The notes under the pieces are model-generated. The model saw only the letters and a list, made by a program, of their open reading frames with translations, searched no databases and had not been told where the DNA came from. Shown here in pieces: positions 3,222-16,536 of a stretch of 64,000 bases of DNA. The first letter of the stretch is position 1; every line of letters starts with the position of its first letter. The translations under genes and the position numbers were made by a program. The stretch is taken from contig NZ_CP036266.1 in the NCBI RefSeq assembly GCF_007744075.1, positions 682,001 to 746,000 of the forward strand. Reading direction: 5' to 3'. The stretch comes from Gimesia chilikensis. Lineage in GTDB: Bacteria > Planctomycetota > Planctomycetia > Planctomycetales > Planctomycetaceae.

Positions 3222-4097
3222 TTATTTTGCCGGACGCAGCTCAAATTCCGCGGGGATGCGTTCCAGAACACCGCTCCCAAAGACCGGGTAAAGTTGCAGT
3301 TCGTCCATGTGTACATAGCCGATGTGACAGCCACAGGTCTGGTTTGAACAGGGGCGATCAACGAGTGTGTCTGCAAAGCCGGGTTCATAAATGTTTCCCA
3401 GTGGCTGTTTGATGAAGTGGCAGCGATAGATGTCGCCGGCCCCGTCGACCGAAATCACACTGGAGCCGCATCGGCAGCTGCGTCCGAGGCTCGCATGATA
3501 TTGGGTGTTGAGCTGAAACAGCGGGTCGATGGCCGTGAAGCGGTCCAGTAGCTCGCCGCAATAATCCACGCCGGAACTTTTGGCAGCGTTGACCCAGAGA
3601 TAGATATTGTCGGGAAGTTCTGCTCGTAGCCGTTCGATCTCGGGCAGATCATCGGGGAGCCCGACTGCACCGACGCTGTGTGCGACACCGAGCTCGGTCA
3701 GTCTGCGTGACTGTGAGAGAAAGCGGGACCGCGTTGTCTGCGAGGGGTGAAAGGTACACCAGAGTGCGAGCCGTGAGACGTTGGCATTTTCAATCCATTG
3801 TAGATCGTATGAGAGATTGGTCTGGGCGGCGACTTTCTCAATCTGGGGGAGGTGGGTCAGTTCACAGATGGCTGATTGATACCAGCGACGGGTGAGCGCT
3901 TCTCCCCAGGGGGTGAAGAACAGGGAGAGCGAATCTTCGTGGCGGCCTTTGACCCAGTCCACCAGGCGTTCGAGGGCGAGTCGGTCGGTTTTCAGTTCCG
4001 CGGCGGTTTCGTGGCGCTTGGCGAAAGGGCAGTAATGACAGTCATAGTTACAACTGGAGAGAGGGCCGCGATAGAGGATGCTGAGTTTCAGTGACAT
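3222..4097 (-). CDS. STM4011-family radical SAM protein
   Basis: Radical SAM enzyme of about 291 residues. The 4Fe-4S motif CxxxCxxC lies at residues 16-23 (C16, C20, C23 in SSCNYDCHYCPF). The C-terminal half has further cysteines (CRCGSS, YRCHF, CSNQTCGC) that look like a SPASM-type auxiliary cluster. The ATG at 4097 is chosen because the family sequence MSLKLSILYRG starts there; the open frame upstream is a shadow of the next gene. The start overlaps the 3' end of the STM4012-like gene by 10 bases, so translation is probably coupled. I recognise the protein as the STM4011-like member of the STM4011-4015 cluster. Its reaction is not known to me; peptide or small-molecule modification is the generic expectation for SPASM-like enzymes. 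Confidence 0.8.
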   Translation of the reverse strand: MSLKLSILYRGPLSSCNYDCHYCPFAKRHETAAELKTDRLALERLVDWVKGRHEDSLSLFFTPWGEALTRRWYQSAICELTHLPQIEKVAAQTNLSYDLQWIENANVSRLALWCTFHPSQTTRSRFLSQSRRLTELGVAHSVGAVGLPDDLPEIERLRAELPDNIYLWVNAAKSSGVDYCGELLDRFTAIDPLFQLNTQYHASLGRSCRCGSSVISVDGAGDIYRCHFIKQPLGNIYEPGFADTLVDRPCSNQTCGCHIGYVHMDELQLYPVFGSGVLERIPAEFELRPAK

Positions 4098-5407
4098 TGA
4101 AACGTCTCCATACGCTGCAGGACCTGTTCCGAGTAGAGCCAGGGGCCGATGGTGTCTGATCGTTCGAGACCGGCGGGGGTGAGAATGATCGTATCCGCGG
4201 TGATTCGTGCGAGCCCATATTCTTCCAGTTCCCGCAGATCGGGGAAATGGTTGAGGACATCTCCGCCGAAGGTCCGGGAGTAGAAGTCGCGGGAGAGGCC
4301 AGTCGTCTGCAGAAGCGACATGATCAGAAACCGGCGCTGCTGTTCCTCCCGATCCAGTTCCACTCCATAGTGGGCCGAGGCGAAGGACTCCGGTTCCTGT
4401 TCGAGATAATGTGCGATGATGGCCGCCACACCACTGCGGCCGACCGCGTATTCGCTGGAGTAGTGAATGCGGCTGGTATAGGAGCGGGCGCCGCAGCCCA
4501 GGCCGATCATGCCATCGGTCTGACAGCAGTACTGCGTGTCGTGAGGCTGGATCGCGTCTGTCCGACGGAACATGCGGAGAGAGTGTTGCGTGTAGCCCCG
4601 TTCGAACAGGAAGTCCCGACCGGCGCGATAGAGTGTCAGGCGATGGTCGTCCCACTGTTGTGGTTTGCGTCCCAGGCCGGTGAGCGGGCGGACATACAGG
4701 GGATAGAGATAGAGTTCTTCCGGCTGGAAGGCGAGTGCCTGCTGAAGCGAGTCTCGAAAACTGTCGACCGTCTGTCCGTCGGCACCGTAGATCAGGTCGA
4801 GGTTCAGTGTGGGAATGCCGACATTGCGAACCAGTTCCAGCGCCTCAACAATTTCACGTCGTTTCTGCGGACGACCGATGCTGAGGGCCTCCTGTTCGTC
4901 AAACGACTGGATGCCGAGAGAGAGGCGGTCGATTCCCTGATCGTGGATCAATGCTACTTTCTCTGCTGTTAATGTCGCGGGGGAAGCTTCGAGGCTGCAG
5001 GGGAACTGTGCCGGGCTGGTATTCAGTTCTCTCTGGAGAATGTCAAACAGCTGTGCGAGTTCATCTGGTTCAAGGTAAGTGGGAGTGCCGCCCCCGATCG
5101 CGAGCTGAGAAAAATGGAAGTCGGGCAGTTGATCGCGAACCTGCCGGGCCTCGATGCGGAGTTGCTGCAGATATTGAGCTGCGAGATCGTCCTCGGGATT
5201 CGAGAGGGTAAACAGGTTGCAGAAACCGCAGCGGTATTCGCAGAAAGGAAGATGTAGATACAGTGATAAATCTGTGCGGTCTTCCGGTTCCCAGATCTGC
5301 CGGAGGGGCAGCGGTCGCGCGAACGGGCGATAAGCGGACTTGTGCGGATAGGCGTAGCTGTAGGCGAGGTAGGGCGTTTCCGCGAGCAGTGTTTGCAGAT
5401 GGCTCAT
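4088..5407 (-). CDS. STM4012-family radical SAM protein (HemN-like)
   Basis: Radical SAM protein of about 439 residues resembling oxygen-independent coproporphyrinogen III oxidase. The motif CEYRCGFC has C56, C60 and C63 in HLPFCEYRCGFCNLF, followed by the HemN-like IGGGTPTYLEP. The start is the ATG at 5407, with a GGAGGT ribosome site just upstream. It overlaps the stop of the sulfatase-like gene as ATGA; an in-frame start ten codons earlier has no such support. HemN look-alikes usually do not make haem but act on other substrates. The neighbours are the other STM4011-4015 members rather than haem genes, so a cluster-specific reaction is more likely than porphyrin synthesis. Confidence 0.8.
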   Translation of the reverse strand: MSHLQTLLAETPYLAYSYAYPHKSAYRPFARPLPLRQIWEPEDRTDLSLYLHLPFCEYRCGFCNLFTLSNPEDDLAAQYLQQLRIEARQVRDQLPDFHFSQLAIGGGTPTYLEPDELAQLFDILQRELNTSPAQFPCSLEASPATLTAEKVALIHDQGIDRLSLGIQSFDEQEALSIGRPQKRREIVEALELVRNVGIPTLNLDLIYGADGQTVDSFRDSLQQALAFQPEELYLYPLYVRPLTGLGRKPQQWDDHRLTLYRAGRDFLFERGYTQHSLRMFRRTDAIQPHDTQYCCQTDGMIGLGCGARSYTSRIHYSSEYAVGRSGVAAIIAHYLEQEPESFASAHYGVELDREEQQRRFLIMSLLQTTGLSRDFYSRTFGGDVLNHFPDLRELEEYGLARITADTIILTPAGLERSDTIGPWLYSEQVLQRMETFQCH

Positions 5408-6219
5408 GCCGGACCTCCGGTCTGGGTGAGCAGGCATTCGAGATAGGGGACATCCCAGACCAGTGGATGTGCGAGTCGGTGTCCCTGGTAGCCGTCTTCG
5501 CCGAAGGTGGTGCCATGGTCGGAACAGATGATACAGAGTAGTGGGGCCCGCTGTTGCAGGGCTGTGATCAGGGGGCTGAGTTGAGCGTCGGCATAGGCGA
5601 GGGCTGCGATCTGGGTGTCAACGGAATCCGCAAGTGCACCTTCTTTAAAAATACAACTGGGCTGATGCGTGGCTGAAACGTTGAGAAACAGAAAGAGACG
5701 TTGTTCAGCCGGAAGCTGCTGGAGTCGTTCGAGAGTGAAATCGACCTGGTGCCGGGTGGAGTGCCGGTCGGTCACCCCGAAGGACGGATACCAGTGGCTT
5801 TCCTGGAACAGTCCGGGCAGGGCATTGCCCAGCGGACTCTGTTTATTGAAGAAGCCGACGCCGCCGATACAGAGCGTGTGGTAACCCTGTGCTGCGAGTC
5901 CGGTAACGATGTTGTCTGAAGAAAAGACACAGGTCTCTGGGGCGATGGTTTCACTGCCGGGAAATTCGAGGGCGAACAGTCGTGGATGTTTGCCCGGTGT
6001 CACGGGATTCGGGAGGAACCCGGCGAAAAAGGCCTGGTGAGCGGCATAGGTGAAGTTACCAGGTGAATGTCTGCGTTCCCAGCCGGTCTCGGGGAGCAGA
6101 CGGGCCAGGTTGGGGGTCAGTCCCTGCTGCAGCGCACGGGTTGCGACATCGAAGCGGAGCGAATCGAGGGTCAGCAACAGGATGTCGTGTGTGCCCAGGC
6201 AGGCGCGTGCATCAATCAT
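5404..6219 (-). CDS. STM4013-family sulfatase-like hydrolase
   Basis: Protein of about 271 residues in the alkaline phosphatase / sulfatase superfamily. An N-terminal metal-binding strand, LLLTLDSLRFD (D19), and a C-terminal SDHGTTFGEDGYQGHR supply the expected Asp/His metal ligands. It has no signal peptide, so it should act in the cytoplasm, unlike most planctomycete sulfatases. No CxPxR formylglycine motif is seen, so it is not an ordinary sulfatase; phosphoryl transfer or hydrolysis is possible. The start at 6219 overlaps the upstream HAD stop as ATGA; an ATG four codons earlier (6231) is the alternative. Its own stop overlaps the next start as ATGA. The tight coupling implies one multi-step pathway. 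Confidence 0.75.
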   Translation of the reverse strand: MIDARACLGTHDILLLTLDSLRFDVATRALQQGLTPNLARLLPETGWERRHSPGNFTYAAHQAFFAGFLPNPVTPGKHPRLFALEFPGSETIAPETCVFSSDNIVTGLAAQGYHTLCIGGVGFFNKQSPLGNALPGLFQESHWYPSFGVTDRHSTRHQVDFTLERLQQLPAEQRLFLFLNVSATHQPSCIFKEGALADSVDTQIAALAYADAQLSPLITALQQRAPLLCIICSDHGTTFGEDGYQGHRLAHPLVWDVPYLECLLTQTGGPA

Positions 6220-6887
6220 GGTACCAGGCATTGTAGCGAATCGAGTGAAGAAATCTGGCAGTGCGGCTCGGGGAATTCCCCGGGGAATGTGCGGTCCAGT
6301 TGTATCCAGCAGGTGTGCATACCGATCTGCCGGGCGCCGTAGATGTCCTGATGTGGATGATCGCCGACGAACAGGGCCTGCTGGGGAGTGACTCCCAGTG
6401 TCGACAACGCCTGTGCAAAGATGGCTCGATCCGGTTTGGCTGCGCCCGTTTCTTCAGAGATCCAGATGTGATCAATCAGTTGATCGATGCCGGCGGCTTC
6501 GATTTTCGCGCGCTGGAGTTCTGCGGAACCGTTGGTGATGACGGCCAGCGCGTAGTGCGGTTGCAGTCGTTGCAGGAGTTCCAGGCAGAGCGGATCGGGT
6601 TCGATCATCCGGGGCAGTTTCTCCCGGAAATCTGACCAGAGTTCAGCTGGAGTCCAGTCAGGAAAACAGGTCGTGGCGGCCCAGTCAAAGAATGCGGCGC
6701 GGTCTTCATAGCCCAGTCGGTCGCGGGCCAGGATGGTTAACAGCGTGAGTTCGAATTCATCTTCGGGCAGGGGCGGGGACGCATCCTGCAGGAGCTGTGT
6801 GAAATAGCGACGCACCGCTGTACTGCGATCGAGGAGCGTATTATCGAGGTCAAACAGGATGGCTTTGATATCTGCATTGGGGAGCAT
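6216..6887 (-). CDS. HAD-family hydrolase
   Basis: Cytoplasmic HAD-superfamily phosphatase of about 223 residues. All four motifs are visible: DLDNT (motif I, nucleophile Asp), ITNGS (motif II), AKPD (motif III Lys) and GDHPHQDI (motif IV acidic pair). The helical cap after motif I resembles YjjG/PynA-like nucleotidases. It is the first gene of the minus-strand arm and its stop overlaps the start of the sulfatase-like gene as ATGA. It is therefore probably a working part of the STM4011-4015 cluster, although I do not recall it as one of the named members. The substrate is unknown. Confidence 0.8.
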   Translation of the reverse strand: MLPNADIKAILFDLDNTLLDRSTAVRRYFTQLLQDASPPLPEDEFELTLLTILARDRLGYEDRAAFFDWAATTCFPDWTPAELWSDFREKLPRMIEPDPLCLELLQRLQPHYALAVITNGSAELQRAKIEAAGIDQLIDHIWISEETGAAKPDRAIFAQALSTLGVTPQQALFVGDHPHQDIYGARQIGMHTCWIQLDRTFPGEFPEPHCQISSLDSLQCLVP

Positions 6888-7065
6888 GGGATTCCGCGAA
6901 GGCCGCCTTTGTGTGATTGAGAATGATGATCCCTGGGCCCCGTCATGCCGAGGTGAAGACCCTGTGAATTTCCAGTTGCAGAGGATTGCATTATTGAACT
7001 GTTCTATTGTATAAGTGTTTGAGAAGATGTCAATTCGTCACCAGCCGTACTATGAGGAGCTTTCA
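6888..7065. promoter_or_regulatory. divergent promoter region of the STM4011-4015-like cluster
   Basis: These 178 bases separate the HAD-led minus-strand arm from the plus-strand arm. On the plus strand TTGCAT (6986-6991) and TATAAG (7010-7015) are 18 bases apart, an acceptable housekeeping promoter giving a leader of about 44 bases before the ATG at 7066. No convincing pair was picked out for the minus strand. No operator palindrome and no short precursor-like reading frame with a ribosome site were evident. Confidence 0.45.
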
Positions 7066-8004
7066 ATGACCATCGATTCTCATGTGGATGAATTCGGGGG
7101 CTTGCCTGTCAGGGAATTCGATCCGGAAACGGGTATTCAGGATGCATCGGGCGTGGCCTATCGACTCACGCTGGGATACGAGCGGGAACAGCAGGGGATG
7201 AAATTTTCCGATCTGCTGGAGAAGTATCTGAGTCATCCTCAGATCGGCAATGTCACTGCACTGGTGATCGGCTGCTGGGATGGTGCCTACGAAGGATCCG
7301 GGGCAGAGACCGTCGTCGATCAGCTGCTGGATTCCAGTGATCTGCTGACCGGATTGCGGCATCTGTTTTTTGGTGACATCACATTTGAAGAAAGCGAAAT
7401 CTCCTGGATCGGCCAGGCCGATCTGTCACCGCTGCTCAGATCGTTTCCCCAGCTGGAGGAGTTACGCATTCGGGGAGCGAACGACCTCAGCCTGGGCCGG
7501 GTGAATCACGAGCATTTGAAAACACTGATTATCGAAGCGGGGGGACTGGGAGCGGATGTCGTTCAGGAAGTGACTGCAGCCGTTCTCCCGGAACTGGAAC
7601 ATCTGGAGCTGTGGCTGGGGACGGACGAGTATGGTGGAGATGCCAGCATTGCCGACGTGGAGCCGTTGTTGACCGGCGCCCTGTTTCCCAAATTGAAGTA
7701 TCTGGGACTGCGGAACAGCATTTTCTCGGATGAGATTGCCAAGGCGATCGCAGCGGCACCGATTCTAAACCAGGTGGAGGTGGTCGATCTGTCACTGGGG
7801 ACCCTGAGCGATGAGGGAGCCCAGGCCCTGCTGGACTGCAATCGGTTGAATCAGTTGAAAAAGCTGGATCTGCATTTTCATTATCTGAGCGATGAGATGT
7901 GCAAAAAGCTGAGTGAGTTGGAGATTGAAGTCGATGTTGACGATCAGCAGGAGCCGGATGAGTACGATGGCGAAATGGAACGTTACTGTGCGGTCTCTGA
8001 ATAA
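7066..8004 (+). CDS. STM4015-family leucine-rich-repeat protein
   Basis: Cytoplasmic protein of about 312 residues with leucine-rich-repeat-like units from about residue 85 to 285 (for example LEELRIRGANDLSL, LEHLELWLG, LKYLGLRNS, LKKLDLHFHYLS). The ATG at 7066 is preferred over one at 7015 because a GAGGAGC ribosome site precedes it. The protein ends in a very acidic, probably flexible tail (DVDDQQEPDEYDGEMERY followed by CAVSE) that does not fit the repeat pattern. It lies 19 bases before the STM4014-like gene, so the two are probably cotranscribed. LRR proteins usually bind protein partners. It could be a scaffold or the substrate of the cluster's enzymes; this is inference. Confidence 0.75.
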   Translation: MTIDSHVDEFGGLPVREFDPETGIQDASGVAYRLTLGYEREQQGMKFSDLLEKYLSHPQIGNVTALVIGCWDGAYEGSGAETVVDQLLDSSDLLTGLRHLFFGDITFEESEISWIGQADLSPLLRSFPQLEELRIRGANDLSLGRVNHEHLKTLIIEAGGLGADVVQEVTAAVLPELEHLELWLGTDEYGGDASIADVEPLLTGALFPKLKYLGLRNSIFSDEIAKAIAAAPILNQVEVVDLSLGTLSDEGAQALLDCNRLNQLKKLDLHFHYLSDEMCKKLSELEIEVDVDDQQEPDEYDGEMERYCAVSE

Positions 8005-8023
8005 GGGATTGTGAACCAGTTCG

Positions 8024-9184
8024 ATGTCTTCTCAGTTCGTCATTATTGGTAACCCGGAGAATCGAAGGGTCCACCTGTTTCAACAGGCCCTGGAATCACA
8101 GGGGCAACCCGCGGCCCGTGTCGTTTCGTATGAACGACTGCTGCAAGACGTAGATTGTCTCCGGGATATCATTCGACCGGGCGACATTGTGCGGATCGAG
8201 TCTCCCGGAGAAAACTTCGCCGTCGAAAAAGGACTGCTGGCCCGAGGTGTGGCTGCCGCCGAAGTGGAAGGACACCCCTTTTTGTCTTTGCATCAGATCG
8301 AGAGGCTGGAGTACGACCACGGTTTGATTCTGCATCCGCGACAGTGGTACATGGGCTATTGCAGCCTGCTGATTCAAATCGGTAAGTGTCTGTCGGGGAT
8401 AGCATCCATCAGACTGTTGAATCCGCCGGCTGATATTCGGGAGCTGTTTGATAAACGGGCCTGTCATGCCCGGTGCAGGGAGGCGGGGTGCGCGGTTCCC
8501 GAGGCGTTTCCGGAAATTCATTCGTTCGATGAACTGCTAACCATCATGCAACAGCGGAATGAGCGTCGTGTTTTTCTCAAGCTGGCGCATGCTTCTTCCG
8601 CATCGGGTGTGGTGGCGTTGCATCAAAATTCCCGCCGGATCGAAGCGATCACCTCTACGGAGCTGGTGAATCAGGACGGGCAGACGCGACTCTATAATTC
8701 CCTGAAGGTCAGACGGTACACCGATCTGAACGTAATTCGCACACTGATCGATGAACTGTGCCGGGAAGGAGTGCATGTGGAGCGGTGGATGCCCAAAGCG
8801 GCGCTCAGTCATGGCAGGACGTTTGATCTCCGTGTGGTGGTGATCACTGGTCAGGCTCGGCACACTGTGGTGCGGGAGAGTCGGAGCCCGCTGACGAATC
8901 TGCACCTGGGGAACCGGCGAGGCGATGGTGAGCGGCTGCAGGAGCTTCTCGGTCCCGAGCGGTGGCGTGCGTTGATGGAAGTCTGTGAGCAGGCAGCGGG
9001 TGTTTATCCGGAGAGTTTCCAGGTGGGCGTTGATCTGCTGCTGACCCCCGGATTTCGCCAGGCACTGATTTTGGAGCTGAATGCGTTCGGGGATCTGCTG
9101 CCCGGGATCCTGTGGGAAGGGGAGGAGACGTATCAGAGTGAGATCAATTCTCTGGTGACGGACTATGCGGGTCGTAAGGGTTAA
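8024..9184 (+). CDS. STM4014-family ATP-grasp-like protein
   Basis: Protein of about 386 residues with an ATP-grasp architecture. An N-terminal alpha/beta part starts SSQFVIIGNPENRR. A central nucleotide-binding section contains RRVFLKLAHASSASGV. A C-terminal catalytic section contains FDLRVVVITGQARHTVVRES and a metal-binding QVGVDLLLTP ... ALILELNAFGD. ATP-grasp enzymes join a carboxylate to an amine or similar nucleophile through an acyl phosphate, so a ligase is the natural expectation. The gene is second in the plus-strand arm of the STM4011-4015-like cluster and shares the divergent control region. It is not a close match to glutathione- or RimK-type ligases that I recognise. The actual substrate is unknown. 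Confidence 0.75.
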   Translation: MSSQFVIIGNPENRRVHLFQQALESQGQPAARVVSYERLLQDVDCLRDIIRPGDIVRIESPGENFAVEKGLLARGVAAAEVEGHPFLSLHQIERLEYDHGLILHPRQWYMGYCSLLIQIGKCLSGIASIRLLNPPADIRELFDKRACHARCREAGCAVPEAFPEIHSFDELLTIMQQRNERRVFLKLAHASSASGVVALHQNSRRIEAITSTELVNQDGQTRLYNSLKVRRYTDLNVIRTLIDELCREGVHVERWMPKAALSHGRTFDLRVVVITGQARHTVVRESRSPLTNLHLGNRRGDGERLQELLGPERWRALMEVCEQAAGVYPESFQVGVDLLLTPGFRQALILELNAFGDLLPGILWEGEETYQSEINSLVTDYAGRKG

Positions 9185-10777: not shown

Positions 10778-13165
10778 CTACGGGAAGCAGTCCGCGATAT
10801 TGATGACATTTCCAGTAGTGATTACAGGGACGTTGTTGTTGTTCGTCGAGAGGTTCGGCAGATCTTCGATTTTGATAACCCCCCCGAAGTTGGTGCTGAA
10901 TTCAAACAGATGATACGCGGTGTTGTTTAAGATCTCCATACAGAGTTCGGAGCCGGAATCTTCAGAGTAGATCAGCAGGTCTTCGGCGGTATTCGCACTG
11001 TTGGTGAAGTTGTTCTGATTGATGCGCATCCGGGCTGCTGCTCCAGATTTTACGTCGGCGCGCAGATTGTACTGGTTGGGGCCGAAGGTGTTGTCCGTGA
11101 GGAAAATGTCGTGGCTGGTGCCCAGACCGATGTCGGCGATGAAGCCATAGGCGAAGACTTCTGAATCACCGGGATCCGAGATCAGGTTCTGGCTGACGTT
11201 GGTAGTAGTGGCTCCTGCGGTCTGCAGTTCGAGCCAGATCGCCCTGCCGAGTGTCGCGTGGTCGTTGGTGACGATTTTATTGTCGATGATGTCCGTCGTC
11301 GCAGAACCGTTCAGATGACTGACCTGGATGCCATTAAAGATGCCAGAGCCCGTGAGGGGACCGTCGTCATTAAAGATGGTATTGCCTGAGATGGTGGTGT
11401 GCGCGGTACCGGACGAGTTGCCCTGATACTTGATGCCTCCTGCGAGAGAGAAGTCGAAGCCGGTAATAAGATTGTCGCGGATGCGGGTGGTAATATCGCC
11501 GGCGTTGGCGGTGATATTGATGCCGTAGTCGGAGCCCTGGACTTCGCTGGTGATCGTGTTGCGATCGATGTCGATCTGGGCGTCGTCATTGACGGAGATG
11601 GAAATGGCGTCGCCGAAGACGGCCGGTCCTGCATCGCTGGCCAGGCTTCTGAGGGTGTTATCCGCGATGACGATCTGGCCGGAACTGGTGACGATTTCAA
11701 TCATGTCGTCATCGATAGCTTGCAGCGTGTTGTTGCGGATGAAGATGTCGCGTGCGTTTTTCAGGAAGATGCCGTTATTGGCATCGTTGGTGATTGTGTT
11801 GTGGGTAATTGTGATCTGCTGCGCACCGTCGGCCCTGATGGAGGGGCTTTCGTCAATTGTGACAATCCGGAAGCCGGAGAGCAGGGTGCGATCATTCATG
11901 GTAAAGCTGCCGTTGATCTGCGGGAAGAGTCCGGTGTTGGAACCGGGCAGCAACTGCTGACCAAACTGGGTGTTGATGAACTGGGCGGGGCCTGAAGACA
12001 TCACCTGTGTACCGGGGGCGAGAGTGAAGTCGCCGGTTTCGGAAGTGCCGCGATGATCGAAGACGATCAGATCACCTGCCTGGGTGCGTGTGTCGTTAAA
12101 CGCTTTGGTGAGTGTTTCGTAGGGATCTTCAAAAGAGCCATTGCTGTTACCTCCCGCGGCGACGTGCATGAAGTAGTAGGGATTGCCGGTTGCGGGATTA
12201 CGAATGAGTGTATTGCTGGCGCTGGCGTGTTCCTGATTGTCGACGACGATGGCGCGAAGTCGTTCGGGGCTTTCGCCGAGACGATCCCGGGCGGTGAGGT
12301 CCATACGGGGACCGTTTTTGAGTCCGGTGATGCTGGGCCACTGGAAGGAGACGGAGAAGTTGACGGTGGTATCAAAGACGCGGTCGTTCTGGACGCTGAG
12401 GTTGAGGGCGACCTGGTCGTTGATGCGGCTTTCGAGGCGGGATTTCCAGCCCCAGGCCTGTTGACTGCCTTGCGCCTGAAAGTGGTACCAGCCGGCGAAG
12501 GCACGGACGTCGGTATTGAAACCGGTGAGAACTCTGCGACCGGCTTCCATGTCGACGCCGGTCATCGCGGCCTGGTAAAAGCGGGTGAGCGTTCCCCCGT
12601 AGAGGTAGTGGCCGGAGAAATAGTAGTTGCCTGTACCAGAGAGACTGGAGCCCCACTGCTTCCGCCGAGTGCCTGTGGGGACATACCAGTTGAGGCGGCC
12701 TTCCCAGAAATCGCCGATGAGTTCGGCACCACCTGAGACCTGGCTGAAGTTCGCGTAGCCGGCGTTCCGTGTATCGTAGTAGAGGTACGCACCGATGGTG
12801 TGTTCCCATTCGGGAAGATAGCGGCGGGCACCAAAGCCCACATTGGAGCCGAGGTTCGTGCTGTCGGAGTCGATCAGAAGTCGGGCGTCGAGGAAGAACA
12901 GGGAGTTGCTGTCTTCACCTTCGAAAAGGGGGAGGAAGCCGTCGAAGGAAGAGAGGCCGCCGATGCGGCCGATGGTATCACCGGCCTGATAGCGATAGCC
13001 GAAATGAGGATGGTAGCGTCCAAACCAGCCGGCATCCCCAAAGAGTTCCGCGACGTCCGCCTGGACGTTTTCTGACTGCGGCGCAGGAGCGGTCTCCTGT
13101 GTGCTTGCCAGTAAGGTTAGTGGTAAGCAGAAGAATGTGAATAATCCCAGCCAGGCCCGCGTCAT
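10778..13165 (-). CDS. inverse-autotransporter-like outer-membrane protein with beta-helix passenger (copy 1)
   Basis: Protein of 795 residues, the shortest of three tandem paralogues. A signal peptide (about residues 1-20) is followed by a domain of about 250 residues rich in alternating aromatic and polar residues (WFGRYHPHFGYRYQAGD, RYLPEWEHTIGAYLYYDTR, GRLNWYVPTG, WGWKSRLESRI). This resembles the inverse autotransporter beta-barrel. A linker with ERLRAIVVDNQE leads into NPYYFMHVAAGGNSNGSFED and then parallel beta-helix repeats (ITHNTITNDANNGIFL, IDIDRNTITSE) to the end. In intimin-type proteins the N-terminal barrel sits in the outer membrane and the C-terminal passenger is displayed outside. 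No LysM or Ig domain is seen. The gene converges on glnA with 26 bases between them. Confidence 0.75.
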   Translation of the reverse strand: MTRAWLGLFTFFCLPLTLLASTQETAPAPQSENVQADVAELFGDAGWFGRYHPHFGYRYQAGDTIGRIGGLSSFDGFLPLFEGEDSNSLFFLDARLLIDSDSTNLGSNVGFGARRYLPEWEHTIGAYLYYDTRNAGYANFSQVSGGAELIGDFWEGRLNWYVPTGTRRKQWGSSLSGTGNYYFSGHYLYGGTLTRFYQAAMTGVDMEAGRRVLTGFNTDVRAFAGWYHFQAQGSQQAWGWKSRLESRINDQVALNLSVQNDRVFDTTVNFSVSFQWPSITGLKNGPRMDLTARDRLGESPERLRAIVVDNQEHASASNTLIRNPATGNPYYFMHVAAGGNSNGSFEDPYETLTKAFNDTRTQAGDLIVFDHRGTSETGDFTLAPGTQVMSSGPAQFINTQFGQQLLPGSNTGLFPQINGSFTMNDRTLLSGFRIVTIDESPSIRADGAQQITITHNTITNDANNGIFLKNARDIFIRNNTLQAIDDDMIEIVTSSGQIVIADNTLRSLASDAGPAVFGDAISISVNDDAQIDIDRNTITSEVQGSDYGINITANAGDITTRIRDNLITGFDFSLAGGIKYQGNSSGTAHTTISGNTIFNDDGPLTGSGIFNGIQVSHLNGSATTDIIDNKIVTNDHATLGRAIWLELQTAGATTTNVSQNLISDPGDSEVFAYGFIADIGLGTSHDIFLTDNTFGPNQYNLRADVKSGAAARMRINQNNFTNSANTAEDLLIYSEDSGSELCMEILNNTAYHLFEFSTNFGGVIKIEDLPNLSTNNNNVPVITTGNVINIADCFP

Positions 13166-13415: not shown

Positions 13416-16322
13416 TTATGGGGCATTCTGCACATTTCCGATGGTCGTGATTGAGGCGCCGTTATTATTGATCTGCAGGTTCGGCAGATCCTCAACAAGT
13501 ATCTCTCCCCCCAGTACGGCTTCGAAGTACAGAGATGTATCGGTGTTGTTCCCCGTTACATCCAACAGAAGCGAATTCGATCCAAACGAGGTGAAGACAT
13601 CAAGTCCTCGTCCGCCAATCCCGGCGCTGCCGTTGAGGATGTTGTCGTGGATCTGGACGTTGGCAGAAGCGCCAGATATTGTGTCCGCCACGATCTCGAT
13701 GCCGTCATCAAAGACTCCCCCGTATTGAGCAATCTTGTTTTTATTTATGAAGAGAGTGTTGTTTGTACCCCGATCAATGTCCACGGCAATCCCGTCGGTA
13801 AACAAGGCCAAATTATTGTCATCAGAGATAATGTTCTCTGTGATATAAGAAGTCGTGGTCCCTGTTGTATTCAGGTTGAGATAGATGCTGGTTCCAAACA
13901 GATTTCCGACATCGTCTGAGTCGATCGTGTTCTGCGAGATCGTCGTCGTGGCAGAACCATCATCGTAAATCACGTTGATCGCATTTCCAAAGGCCCCCGC
14001 GGTATTGTTGATTGTGTTGTTGGAAATGTTGGTGGTCATCACCCCATTCGCAGTACCGTGGAATGTGATGGCATCGCCGAAGGCGCCAATTGTGTTGGTG
14101 ATGGTGTTACCGGTAATCGTGGTGTCTACGACGCCGGTTGAGTTACTGGTAAAATCAATCCCATTTCCGAAGGCGTCCACGAAACTGGTAATCTGGTTGT
14201 CTCTGATGCGTGTCGTCACATCCCCGGAACTGGCTGTGACTTCAATTCCCGAACCGGCAAGCGCAATCACACTGGTAATGGTATTGTTGTCGATGTCAAC
14301 GTTCGCATTTCCATTGAGGGTGACGTCTATACCGGTACTAAAGGCAGTTACAATACTTCTGATTGTGTTGCCGCTGATGGTACCGTTTCCACTACCACTC
14401 ACCGAGATGCCATCAGAGTCGGCATTGTTGATCGTATTGGAAGAGAAATTGAAGTTGTTGACATTCACCCCGTTGATACCGTATGTACTGGGTGAATTGA
14501 TCGTGGTGTTTTTGATGGTGATATTATTCGAGTTGACGATTTGGACGCCTGAGAACCCACTGTTATTGAATGTCCCGCCGTTGAGTGTGACGCTCCCGCT
14601 TACATTATTGATATCCAGCGGTGCCAGAGTGGTGTTGCTGGTGTTCAACTCGGCGATTGTGATATTCGCTGAGCTGTCGTCGATATCCACGGCTGTCGAT
14701 CCATTGGTGGTTGTGATTTGACCGAACTCAATTGTTCCGCCAGAATTCGCAATTACGACCGCATTACCGTTGGTATTCGTAATGGAGCTGTTGGTAAAGG
14801 TCACATCAGCCGCGTTTTGGCTGCCCGTAATTGATACGCCCAGCCCATCCGTTTTTGTGAGGGGGGTTTGGTCGAATGTGGCGGGGCCTGTTAAATTTGT
14901 CAGACTGATAGCCGTACCAGCTCCGTTATGATTGATCGTATTGTTCGAGACCATCAGGTTCCCCACGCCATTGGCAATAATCGAAGAACCAGCACCAGTG
15001 GTGGTGATATCAAACCCGGACAGCACGCTGCGGTTATTCAGAGTGAAGCTACCCGTGATGTCCGGGTTAATACCGGTACCGGAGTCGGGCAACTGGAGCG
15101 ATCCGAACTGGGAGTTGATGAACTGTGCGGGTCCTTCGGAGAGGACCTGTGTATTGTCAGCCAGGACGAAGTTACCGGTTTCCGAACCGTCGCGGTGGTC
15201 GTAGACGATCAGGTCGCCAGCTTGAGTCCGTGGATCAGCGAAGGCAGCGGCGAGGGTGGCGTAGGGATCTTCGTAGGAACCGTCGCTGTTACCACCGGTG
15301 GCGACGTGCATAAAGTAGTACGGGTTGCCGGTGGATGGATTGATAATCAGGCCGCCGTTAGGATCCTGGACTTCCTGGTTGTCGACGACGATGGCACGAA
15401 GCCGTTCGGGGCTTTCACCGAGACGATCCCAGGCTTTGAGATCGGAGCGGGGGCCGTTACGGAGTCCGGTGATGCTGGGCCACTGAATGCCGACGGAAAA
15501 GTTGACCGTGGTATCGAAGACGCGGTCATTCTGCACGCTGAGGTTCAGCGAAACCTTATCCGAAATGCGGCTTTCCACGCGTGATTTCCAGCCCCAGGCC
15601 TGGGGGCTTCCGGAAGCCTGGAAATGGTACCAGCCCGCGTAGGCGCGGAGGTCCATGTAGTCATTCGTGTAGAATTTGGCACCCGCTTCCATGTCGAGGC
15701 CTTTCATCGCGGCCTGGTAGTAACGGGTGAATGTGCCACCATACAGATAGTGGCCGATGAACTGGTAGCTCCCACCGTTGTTGACGTGCGTGGTTGCGTA
15801 CTGCTTGCGGGTGGTGCCGGTGGGGACGTACCAGTTGAGGCGGGCGTCCCAGATATCACCCAGGGTTTCAATACCGCCGGAAACCTGATCGAAGTTGGCG
15901 TAGCCGGCGTCGCGGGTGTCATGGTAGATATAGCCCCCGATGGTTCGCTGATATTCGGGCAGATACTGACGGGCACCCAGACCCACGTTGGAGCCGAGGT
16001 TGTGATTGTCGTCACCCAGGAGCAGGCGGGCGTCGATGAACATCAGCCAGTCACTGTCATCGCCTTCCAGTACGGGGAAGAAGGCATCGAAGGAGGAAAG
16101 TCCACCGATGCGACCGATGGTGTCTCCAGCCTGGTAACGGTAGCCGACATGCGGGCGATAGCGGCCGAACCAGGCAGAGTCGCCAAACAGTTCGCTGACA
16201 TCGCCACCGACCTGGCCTCCTTCGAAGCCGGGGTCTGCTGGTTCGGGATCGAAGGTATCTGCAGAGAGTGGGCTGGCGGTGGCACACAGGGCTAACAGCA
16301 GGGCGAAGCACAGTCGTTTCAT
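13416..16322 (-). CDS. inverse-autotransporter-like outer-membrane protein with beta-helix passenger (copy 2)
   Basis: Paralogue of about 968 residues. The ATG at 16322 begins a signal peptide (MKRLCFALLLALCATASPLSA); an ATG three codons earlier is the alternative. The N-terminal barrel-like domain (VSELFGDSAWFGRYRPHVGY ... RQYLPEYQRTIGGYIYHDTR ... LNWYVPTG) is nearly colinear with copies 1 and 3. The passenger is Asn/Thr/Ser/Gly-rich beta-helix with repeated NNTI or GNTI turns and contains one copy of a module of about 170 residues found twice in copy 3. It ends with a cap-like segment (EDLPNLQINNN) shared with copy 1. The surface role is inferred from architecture; adhesion is the usual role of such proteins, and the ligand is unknown. 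Confidence 0.75.
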   Translation of the reverse strand: MKRLCFALLLALCATASPLSADTFDPEPADPGFEGGQVGGDVSELFGDSAWFGRYRPHVGYRYQAGDTIGRIGGLSSFDAFFPVLEGDDSDWLMFIDARLLLGDDNHNLGSNVGLGARQYLPEYQRTIGGYIYHDTRDAGYANFDQVSGGIETLGDIWDARLNWYVPTGTTRKQYATTHVNNGGSYQFIGHYLYGGTFTRYYQAAMKGLDMEAGAKFYTNDYMDLRAYAGWYHFQASGSPQAWGWKSRVESRISDKVSLNLSVQNDRVFDTTVNFSVGIQWPSITGLRNGPRSDLKAWDRLGESPERLRAIVVDNQEVQDPNGGLIINPSTGNPYYFMHVATGGNSDGSYEDPYATLAAAFADPRTQAGDLIVYDHRDGSETGNFVLADNTQVLSEGPAQFINSQFGSLQLPDSGTGINPDITGSFTLNNRSVLSGFDITTTGAGSSIIANGVGNLMVSNNTINHNGAGTAISLTNLTGPATFDQTPLTKTDGLGVSITGSQNAADVTFTNSSITNTNGNAVVIANSGGTIEFGQITTTNGSTAVDIDDSSANITIAELNTSNTTLAPLDINNVSGSVTLNGGTFNNSGFSGVQIVNSNNITIKNTTINSPSTYGINGVNVNNFNFSSNTINNADSDGISVSGSGNGTISGNTIRSIVTAFSTGIDVTLNGNANVDIDNNTITSVIALAGSGIEVTASSGDVTTRIRDNQITSFVDAFGNGIDFTSNSTGVVDTTITGNTITNTIGAFGDAITFHGTANGVMTTNISNNTINNTAGAFGNAINVIYDDGSATTTISQNTIDSDDVGNLFGTSIYLNLNTTGTTTSYITENIISDDNNLALFTDGIAVDIDRGTNNTLFINKNKIAQYGGVFDDGIEIVADTISGASANVQIHDNILNGSAGIGGRGLDVFTSFGSNSLLLDVTGNNTDTSLYFEAVLGGEILVEDLPNLQINNNGASITTIGNVQNAP

Positions 16323-16536
16323 GGATTCCATTCCAGAGAGAGTACGGTGGTTATCTGGAATATTCGTCTCTCAGTACTTTCGATCTGAACGGTAAAATCC
16401 TGCAGACTATCAGAAGTGGATACTGTGTGTTGTACAGATCGGCTCAGTCAACGCTGGTAAAAGATGACGGTTGGCGAGATGGTATGCCGGCTATTAAATC
16501 AGTGGGAGACTGTGTAGTATGCAAAGAGAGCCTGGA

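Follow-up and report, generated by a model that had tools for sequence, protein, structure and literature searches.

A leucine-rich repeat protein with a near-constant terminal glutamate is paired with a LysX/ArgX-like ATP-grasp protein in the STM4011–STM4015 gene cassette

We analysed 64,000 nucleotides of the Gimesia chilikensis genome (contig NZ_CP036266.1, positions 682,001 to 746,000), referred to below as the window, in which positions 3222–9184 carry a cassette with members of five protein families, STM4011 to STM4015, so far known just by their Salmonella locus names. Within this cassette the leucine-rich repeat (LRR) protein STM4015 ends in a glutamate that is nearly constant among its relatives, and the gene next to it encodes STM4014, an ATP-grasp protein that fold and remote sequence similarity place with the LysX/ArgX-type ligases. 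The gene content of the cassette, its co-occurrence, the terminal Glu and the ligase family are established at the level of sequence and predicted fold, and from them we infer loading at the terminal Glu of STM4015. We consider it probable, if far from certain, that STM4014 loads this residue and that the two radical S-adenosylmethionine (SAM) proteins of the cassette, STM4011 and STM4012, then rework the tethered group. An earlier note on this DNA had proposed a biosynthetic or protein-modification pathway, an idea that our results support; the note mentioned neither the Glu at the end of STM4015 nor the resemblance of STM4014 to LysX, ArgX and RimK.

The carrier idea was formulated when the first eight aligned STM4015 proteins all ended in Glu. 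In loci that hold STM4014, 107 of 109 STM4015-type open reading frames (ORFs) have a terminal Glu, in a census that excluded 11 loci repeating longer ones; the remaining two are copy 1 of locus L049, whose tandem copy is Glu-ended, and a decayed remnant in genome G048. The background is 3.4% of 2,853 long ORFs, which were read stop to stop and are in some cases spurious, and the C-termini of STM4011–STM4014 showed no comparable conservation in the same census. After clustering at 60% identity, 35 of 36 STM4015 clusters were purely Glu-ending. Twenty-four LRR ORFs had no STM4014 in their stretch, and here Glu terminates all five recognisable STM4015 proteins and none of the 19 other, distant paralogues, which come from short stretches where a distant STM4014 gene is possible. 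In ten genomes fetched later, Glu was terminal in 12 of 13 STM4015-type genes, the exception being a G307 copy that belongs to a tandem of three; this set excludes a weak LRR ORF (L186, 26.9 bits) and three STM4015 hits (two in G312 and one in G304). We propose that the last residue is near-constant because one enzyme would load a building block there.

In the window, the STM4015 gene occupies 7066–8004 on the plus strand (312 aa; NF038076, 353.3 bits, cut-off 275), its start being taken as the ATG at 7066 behind GAGGAG, whereas the mechanical ORF begins at a GTG at 7015. The C-terminal tail RYCAVSE is encoded at 7981–8001, with the terminal Glu codon at 7999–8001 and the stop at 8002–8004. 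The AlphaFold2 model has a predicted local distance difference test score (pLDDT) of 95.3, and the nearest solved structure is 2ra8, an uncharacterised LRR protein of Bacteroides fragilis. Homology to LysW was not found, the only matches of STM4015 being STM4015 and LRR models and this B. fragilis structure. In an alignment of the window protein with 43 of 66 listed relatives (A7, 44 rows, without the Gly-ending L049 copy; another alignment, A6, holds 35 of 44 listed relatives), the linker varies in length and has an entropy of mostly 2–3.3, as opposed to an entropy of 0 at R306 and E312 (44/44). The tails of Salmonella (MNAMYTE), Bacteroides finegoldii (YYPMITE) and the window share the terminal Glu alone. 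In three loci of Gemmataceae/Isosphaeraceae type (L015, L020 and G310; Gemmata, Singulisphaera and Fimbriiglobus), STM4014 adjoins WGR-LRR proteins of a different build that end in GDYE, GDWE/GDIE and GDME, respectively; in one of the two L020 neighbours, LRR alone was detected.

These tails also bear on the view that the terminal Glu is a recognition signal only, for instance bound non-covalently by STM4014 or a radical SAM protein, with the enzymes acting elsewhere. An ordered tail, as predicted, would suit such a role, and so would an Arg at position -7, kept in 107 of 111 strong STM4015 members in the manner of a docking motif. However, the Glu outlasts loss of the remaining tail, and a free terminal Glu beside a ligase akin to enzymes that act on terminal Glu would be a specific coincidence, so we regard this view as improbable. 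The genomic arrangement makes STM4015 and STM4014 the tightest pair of the cassette: in complete loci they are adjacent and on the same strand, though widely spaced in L049, and they stay side by side in genomes where the radical SAM genes lie elsewhere.

STM4014 (8024–9184, plus strand, 386 aa; NF038074, 398.8 bits, cut-off 175) was modelled with a pLDDT of 94.4. The top PDB match of this model in Foldseek was ArgX with LysW (3vpb, E 1.5e-12; template modelling (TM) score 0.56 by query and 0.74 by target, 13% identity), followed by Thermococcus LysX/ArgX with LysW-gamma-AAA, PsnB and LysX, and at lower rank by RimK, including the RimK-RpsF complex. A sequence profile of STM4014 pointed in the same direction, LysX providing the best three of 14 PDB matches (E 8.7e-4), none of which was a graspetide ligase. 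Among 36 STM4014 members searched against NCBIfam, rimK_fam matched 29, LysX_arch 19, MptN 18, CofF 5 and a graspetide maturase model 1, the 29 rimK_fam matches falling below family level. Ligases of the rimK_fam, LysX, MptN and CofF types attach amino acids to glutamate-type carboxylates. The window protein exceeded neither the LysX nor the RimK curated cut-off, and NF038074 was its sole NCBIfam match at E up to 0.05. A search for further carriers via a distant STM4014-like protein (L150, G011; 93.8 bits) revealed no LRR or Glu-ended neighbour.

Several observations weigh against loading of the terminal Glu by STM4014. The kinship with LysX/ArgX is remote, as the identity and the TM score on the query indicate; Pfam assigned the 36 members to ATPgrasp_ST (25) and YheCD (17) and only 4 to RimK; and the graspetide ligases PsnB and MdnC rank closely after LysX/ArgX in the fold list. 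The predicted tail is of high confidence (pLDDT 94 over residues 301–310, 82 over 311–312) and ordered rather than floppy. Copy 1 of L049 ends in SSYG, and the G307 copy nearest to STM4014 ends in RYCSVADLAKYY, the tandem copies at both loci ending in Glu. A Calothrix plasmid carries a tailed STM4015 with no STM4014 on that record, and no release peptidase was recognisable among the six window genes.

The rank of the graspetide ligases raises the alternative that STM4014 is an enzyme of this type that cyclises the tail, with cross-links made by the radical SAM proteins and the LRR domain acting as an oversized leader, by analogy with ribosomally synthesised and post-translationally modified peptides (RiPPs). 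Both PsnB and MdnC are among the 50 best structural matches to STM4014, and the available part of PMC8939145 describes SPASM-type radical SAM enzymes as frequent companions of ATP-grasp enzymes in RiPP loci, a combination that graspetides share with the cassette. In contrast to graspetides, the cassette has no small precursor peptide and its tail no conserved Ser, Thr or Lys as a lactone or lactam partner, and the family scan favours glutamate ligases (rimK_fam in 29 of 36 members versus the graspetide maturase model in one). Because the terminal Glu is the only side chain common to all tails, those of the window, Salmonella and B. finegoldii having nothing else in common, cross-linking of the tail is disfavoured, and we give this alternative little credence.

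A different reading of the same tail and ligase evidence is that the C-terminus of STM4015 receives a prosthetic group or mark, made by STM4014 together with the radical SAM enzymes, and that the modified LRR protein is itself the end product, following the logic of RimK and tubulin-tyrosine ligase. A permanent mark would agree with the lack of a release enzyme among the window genes, with the general capacity of LRR domains to bind partners and with the multiple STM4015 copies present in 19 of 68 complete loci, but two radical SAM proteins plus a phosphodiesterase-like enzyme would be unusual for a single terminal mark, and no observation requires permanence. We consider this outcome unlikely.

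The earlier note had named poor family scores, or a lack of conserved co-occurrence of the five proteins, as grounds for refuting its reading. Neither applies: all five scores are above the cut-offs, and the co-occurrence is conserved across unrelated genomes. An STM4011 profile was scanned over contigs of 84,980 species, and the best 80 of at least 446 relatives were used. Since 68 of these 80 genome loci, found via STM4011 alone, contain the complete set of five in the stretch retrieved, the grouping exceeds chance. All genes lie on the same strand in 57 of the 68 complete loci, and in the other 11 STM4014 and STM4015 are on the opposite strand, as in the window. Twelve loci were incomplete, and the genomes of ten of them were checked (L020 and L067 were left out): all ten encode STM4014 over the cut-off elsewhere, and STM4015 was over the cut-off in six, scored 223–225 bits in three and was represented in the last (G310) by the divergent WGR-LRR protein that adjoins STM4014.

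In 294 Planctomycetota genomes, over-cut-off matches to STM4011, STM4014 and STM4015 were confined to the same nine. STM4014 exceeded its cut-off in all nine, STM4011 in eight (in the ninth, G191, it scored 173 bits and was cut by the contig end) and STM4015 in seven, G118 reaching 269.5 bits and G181 having the C-terminal half only. Matches below the cut-offs (E up to 0.001) occurred in 34, 42 and 122 genomes and came largely from LRR, radical SAM and ATP-grasp proteins of general type. Likewise, among 72,556 plasmid records 13 contain both STM4011 and STM4014, neither being found in any other record, and STM4015 was found in those and in one Calothrix plasmid. The module is present in many phyla. 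A plasmid of B. finegoldii (L134:8764–12781) has whole STM4015, STM4014 and STM4011 genes with fragments of STM4013 and STM4012 between them.

The remaining core proteins are encoded on the minus strand. STM4011 (3222–4097, 291 aa; NF038073, 387.8 bits, cut-off 200) has eight Cys that are invariant in 33 sequences (C17, C21, C24, C209, C227, C251, C256 and C258), three of them in a CxxxCxxC motif and five in the C-terminal region, the latter resembling the auxiliary-cluster set of SPASM/twitch-like enzymes. Its sole PDB match was the auxiliary-cluster region of SkfB (E 3.5e-4), and the Pfam radical SAM domain was sub-threshold. Tandem pairs of matches to distant STM4011-like radical SAM proteins (41–49 bits) were seen in three Planctomycetota genomes (G164:C976, G191:C700 and G214:C784) and possibly represent a related system. 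STM4012 (4088–5407, 439 aa; NF006067, 575.9 bits, cut-off 380) contains the Pfam radical SAM and HemN_C domains and a CxxxCxxC motif invariant in 35 sequences, and matched HemN (1olt, E 1.4e-52) and NocN, a radical methyltransferase (9p2u, E 1.8e-32), in the PDB. It stayed below the curated cut-offs for both HemW (172.1 versus 205.4 bits) and HemN (146.4 versus 324.95).

STM4013 (5404–6219, 271 aa; NF038075, 396 bits, cut-off 250) is a hydrolase of the alkaline phosphatase/sulfatase superfamily with a Pfam Sulfatase match. Its description as sulfatase-like in the earlier note is correct as regards the superfamily and fails as regards the sulfatase motif: the nucleophile column holds Thr in 26 of 26 sequences, with Asp and His positions likewise invariant, and the [CS]-x-P-x-R motif is absent from the window protein and from 25 of the 26, the one match (SHPRR) being due to chance. 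The Thr aligns, in a weak alignment, with that of a nucleotide pyrophosphatase/phosphodiesterase. STM4013 lacks the sulfatase motif, and therefore STM4011 is not its formylglycine maturase, a role that we ruled out. These results bear more widely on the idea that STM4011 matures an STM4013 sulfatase while STM4012 is a HemW or HemN protein, with no joint pathway. Such an arrangement could draw on the marginal match of STM4011 to an anaerobic sulfatase maturase model (20.9 bits against a cut-off of 349) and on the HemW score of STM4012, yet the Thr nucleophile, the missing motif and the co-occurrence of the five genes leave it extremely improbable. We also rejected a defence system as a candidate, PADLOC having given two weak matches to STM4012 and one to STM4015.

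STM4013 was found in 26 plasmid records, of which 13 lack the cassette. On a Streptomyces albidoflavus plasmid (L011:7726–9889) an STM4013-type hydrolase is accompanied by a small ORF, a NUDIX hydrolase and a lasso-peptide B2 protein, the other cassette genes being missing. A distant STM4013-like hydrolase (~30% identity) is present on pTi-SAKURA (L013:8001–8861) and in nine other Agrobacterium plasmid records, with a major facilitator superfamily (MFS) transporter near it in the one that was inspected.

Taken as a pathway, these proteins suggest the following order of events. STM4015 would be the carrier, its LRR domain joined by a variable, acidic linker to the conserved Glu-ending tail. STM4014 would spend ATP to activate a carboxylate of the terminal Glu and couple it to an amine, most likely an alpha-amino acid, after which STM4011, of the auxiliary-cluster type, and the HemN-like STM4012 would rework the tethered group. 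We can only guess that the phosphodiesterase-like STM4013, together with a HAD phosphatase where present, handles phosphate on an intermediate or precursor, and the roles of both in the pathway are conjectural. The finished group might leave STM4015 or remain on it; the order of steps, the substrate and the release are likewise guesses.

Comparable logic is found in known systems. According to the part of PMC9303977 available to us, amino-group carrier proteins are loaded through an isopeptide bond on the gamma-carboxylate of their C-terminal Glu. The cassette resembles these systems (LysW with LysX/ArgX, and the Streptomyces carrier proteins, AmCPs) in the C-terminal Glu of the presumed carrier and in the adjacent ATP-grasp ligase, and differs from them in having a 312-aa LRR carrier rather than LysW and in counting the radical SAM proteins STM4011 and STM4012 and the phosphodiesterase-like STM4013 among its enzymes; besides the ligase-like STM4014, no enzyme of the Lys or Arg pathways was recognised among the six window genes. 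RimK, which acts on ribosomal protein S6, is similarly an ATP-grasp ligase working at a protein C-terminal Glu, whereas here the partner would be an LRR protein encoded next door and radical SAM enzymes are added. In pearlins an amino acid is built and modified on a carrier C-terminus, with radical SAM enzymes included, as the same portion of PMC9303977 describes; loading there uses a LanB-like, tRNA-dependent peptide aminoacyl-tRNA ligase (PEARL), unlike the ATP-grasp loading on a folded LRR carrier envisaged here, and Pfam found no such LanB-like ligase domain in the six window proteins. Tentatively, and with some reserve, we suggest that the cassette might add a third kind to the biosyntheses on a carrier C-terminus, after those of amino-group carrier proteins and pearlins: an amino acid held at the terminal Glu of a folded LRR protein would be rebuilt by two radical SAM enzymes into a small molecule or cofactor, in a system spread across many phyla including enteric bacteria. 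If so, LRR proteins would join the known kinds of carrier, radical SAM enzymes would be seen to act on a carrier loaded by an ATP-grasp ligase, and an uncharacterised product would be encoded in many genomes (at least 446 relatives). The terminal Glu provides a definite and cheap test.

The window proteins are members of the NCBIfam families STM4011–STM4015, which are locus-named and carry no function, and the link between tail and ligase is what we add to them. The literature found, in the parts accessible to us, likewise gives no function for STM4010–STM4015, SEN3798 or SEN3800: as far as the accessible portions go, a sigma-54 chromatin immunoprecipitation (ChIP) table includes a site in STM4013.S (PMC3844500), STM4015 appears in a positive-selection table (PMC2784778), and a gene list names STM4010, which by its number adjoins the cluster (PMC4632510). 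A description of this domain combination, or of the DUF6745 system considered below, was not found in the mainly open literature, and a prior description is possible.

As to the history of the cassette, the earlier note had envisaged transfer of an intact module between Salmonella and a planctomycete, which is not borne out by its presence in many phyla or by a quick tree of STM4011, STM4012 and STM4013 from 88 loci, which the program flagged for adjoining long branches. There, the window groups with its own genus (G181 and G291) and then with Schlesneria (Planctomycetaceae) with a support of 88, not starred, and Salmonella is the longest branch, so that direct transfer from Salmonella lacks support. 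G257, from the family of the window, falls beside Deinococcus plasmids (support 94) on a long branch, and this placement is unsure. The cassette of L021, titled Comamonas sp. KCTC 72670, lies inside a Myxococcus clade, and the organism name may be wrong. The site between the alkaline phosphatase gene and glnA takes several forms in the genus. The window and G291 carry the complete cluster there; in the G181 cluster STM4015 has an N-terminal deletion and the HAD gene is shortened; G048 retains a remnant, G069 has other genes, and G227 shows a gap of ~350 bases. Patchiness in the genus thus includes loss. Because the same site is intact, decayed, replaced or empty across the genus, the data fit a dispensable module that has been both gained and lost, rather than a single enteric import.

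The glnA gene itself was considered as a functional link and rejected as a conserved flank of the site in the genus of the window, coincidence being left open. Of 94 stretches scanned, only the window and the Salmonella record had glnA next to the cluster; G273 was added later. The glutamine synthetase genes that G273 (L129:10469–11974) and Salmonella (L012:13865–15274) have in this neighbourhood are possibly there by chance, and the Salmonella record is labelled a plasmid yet has chromosomal-type neighbours.

The layout of the locus agrees in every coordinate and overlap with the earlier description of six genes in two divergent arms, four on the minus and two on the plus strand. STM4012 and STM4011 overlap by 10 bases, and STM4013/STM4012 and HAD/STM4013 are joined by ATGA overlaps. 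The assignment to the STM families also holds, all five window proteins exceeding the curated NCBIfam cut-offs on profile search; in Pfam, the LRR matches of STM4015 and the ATP-grasp match of STM4014 were weak. The divergent intergenic region (6888–7065) contains one sigma-70-like site (7033–7006, minus strand), a consensus match only, for which 0.2 would be expected in shuffled sequences. The sixth gene, a HAD-type phosphatase (6216–6887, minus strand, 223 aa), has HAD domains in Pfam and belongs to no STM family, its best match, TIGR02253 (131.7 bits), being under the cut-off of 169.75. It had been listed as a cluster member, which is right for its location and wrong for the core: a homologue occurs in 10 of 80 genome loci, and also in L124, L125, L128 and L129, making it an optional neighbour outside the cassette core.

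Another accessory element is a DUF6745 protein with a partner of ~100 aa, which flank the cassette in 46 of 94 stretches (for example L009:3168–4632 and L124:11677–13063). The last residues of the two are conserved (T in 45 of 46 and D in 45 of 46, respectively), the partner has conserved GHxH and HxEH motifs of metal-binding appearance, and the pair matches the phage families phrog_31813 and phrog_27831. In G291, a close relative of the window, the pair sits between HAD and STM4015; in the genome of the window itself, an own-genome search with the DUF6745 model gave no match, the same model being positive in 4 of 10 genomes. Six matches to DUF6745 were seen in Microseira (G298), with none reported next to its fetched cluster.

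Outside the cassette, the minus strand of the window contains two neighbouring paralogous ORFs (10778–13165 and 13416–16331) of 795 and 971 aa. They have a common N-terminal segment, ELFGD..WFGRY..H.GYRYQAGDTIGRIGGLSSF, followed by repeats, and by eye they have the look of beta-barrel surface proteins.

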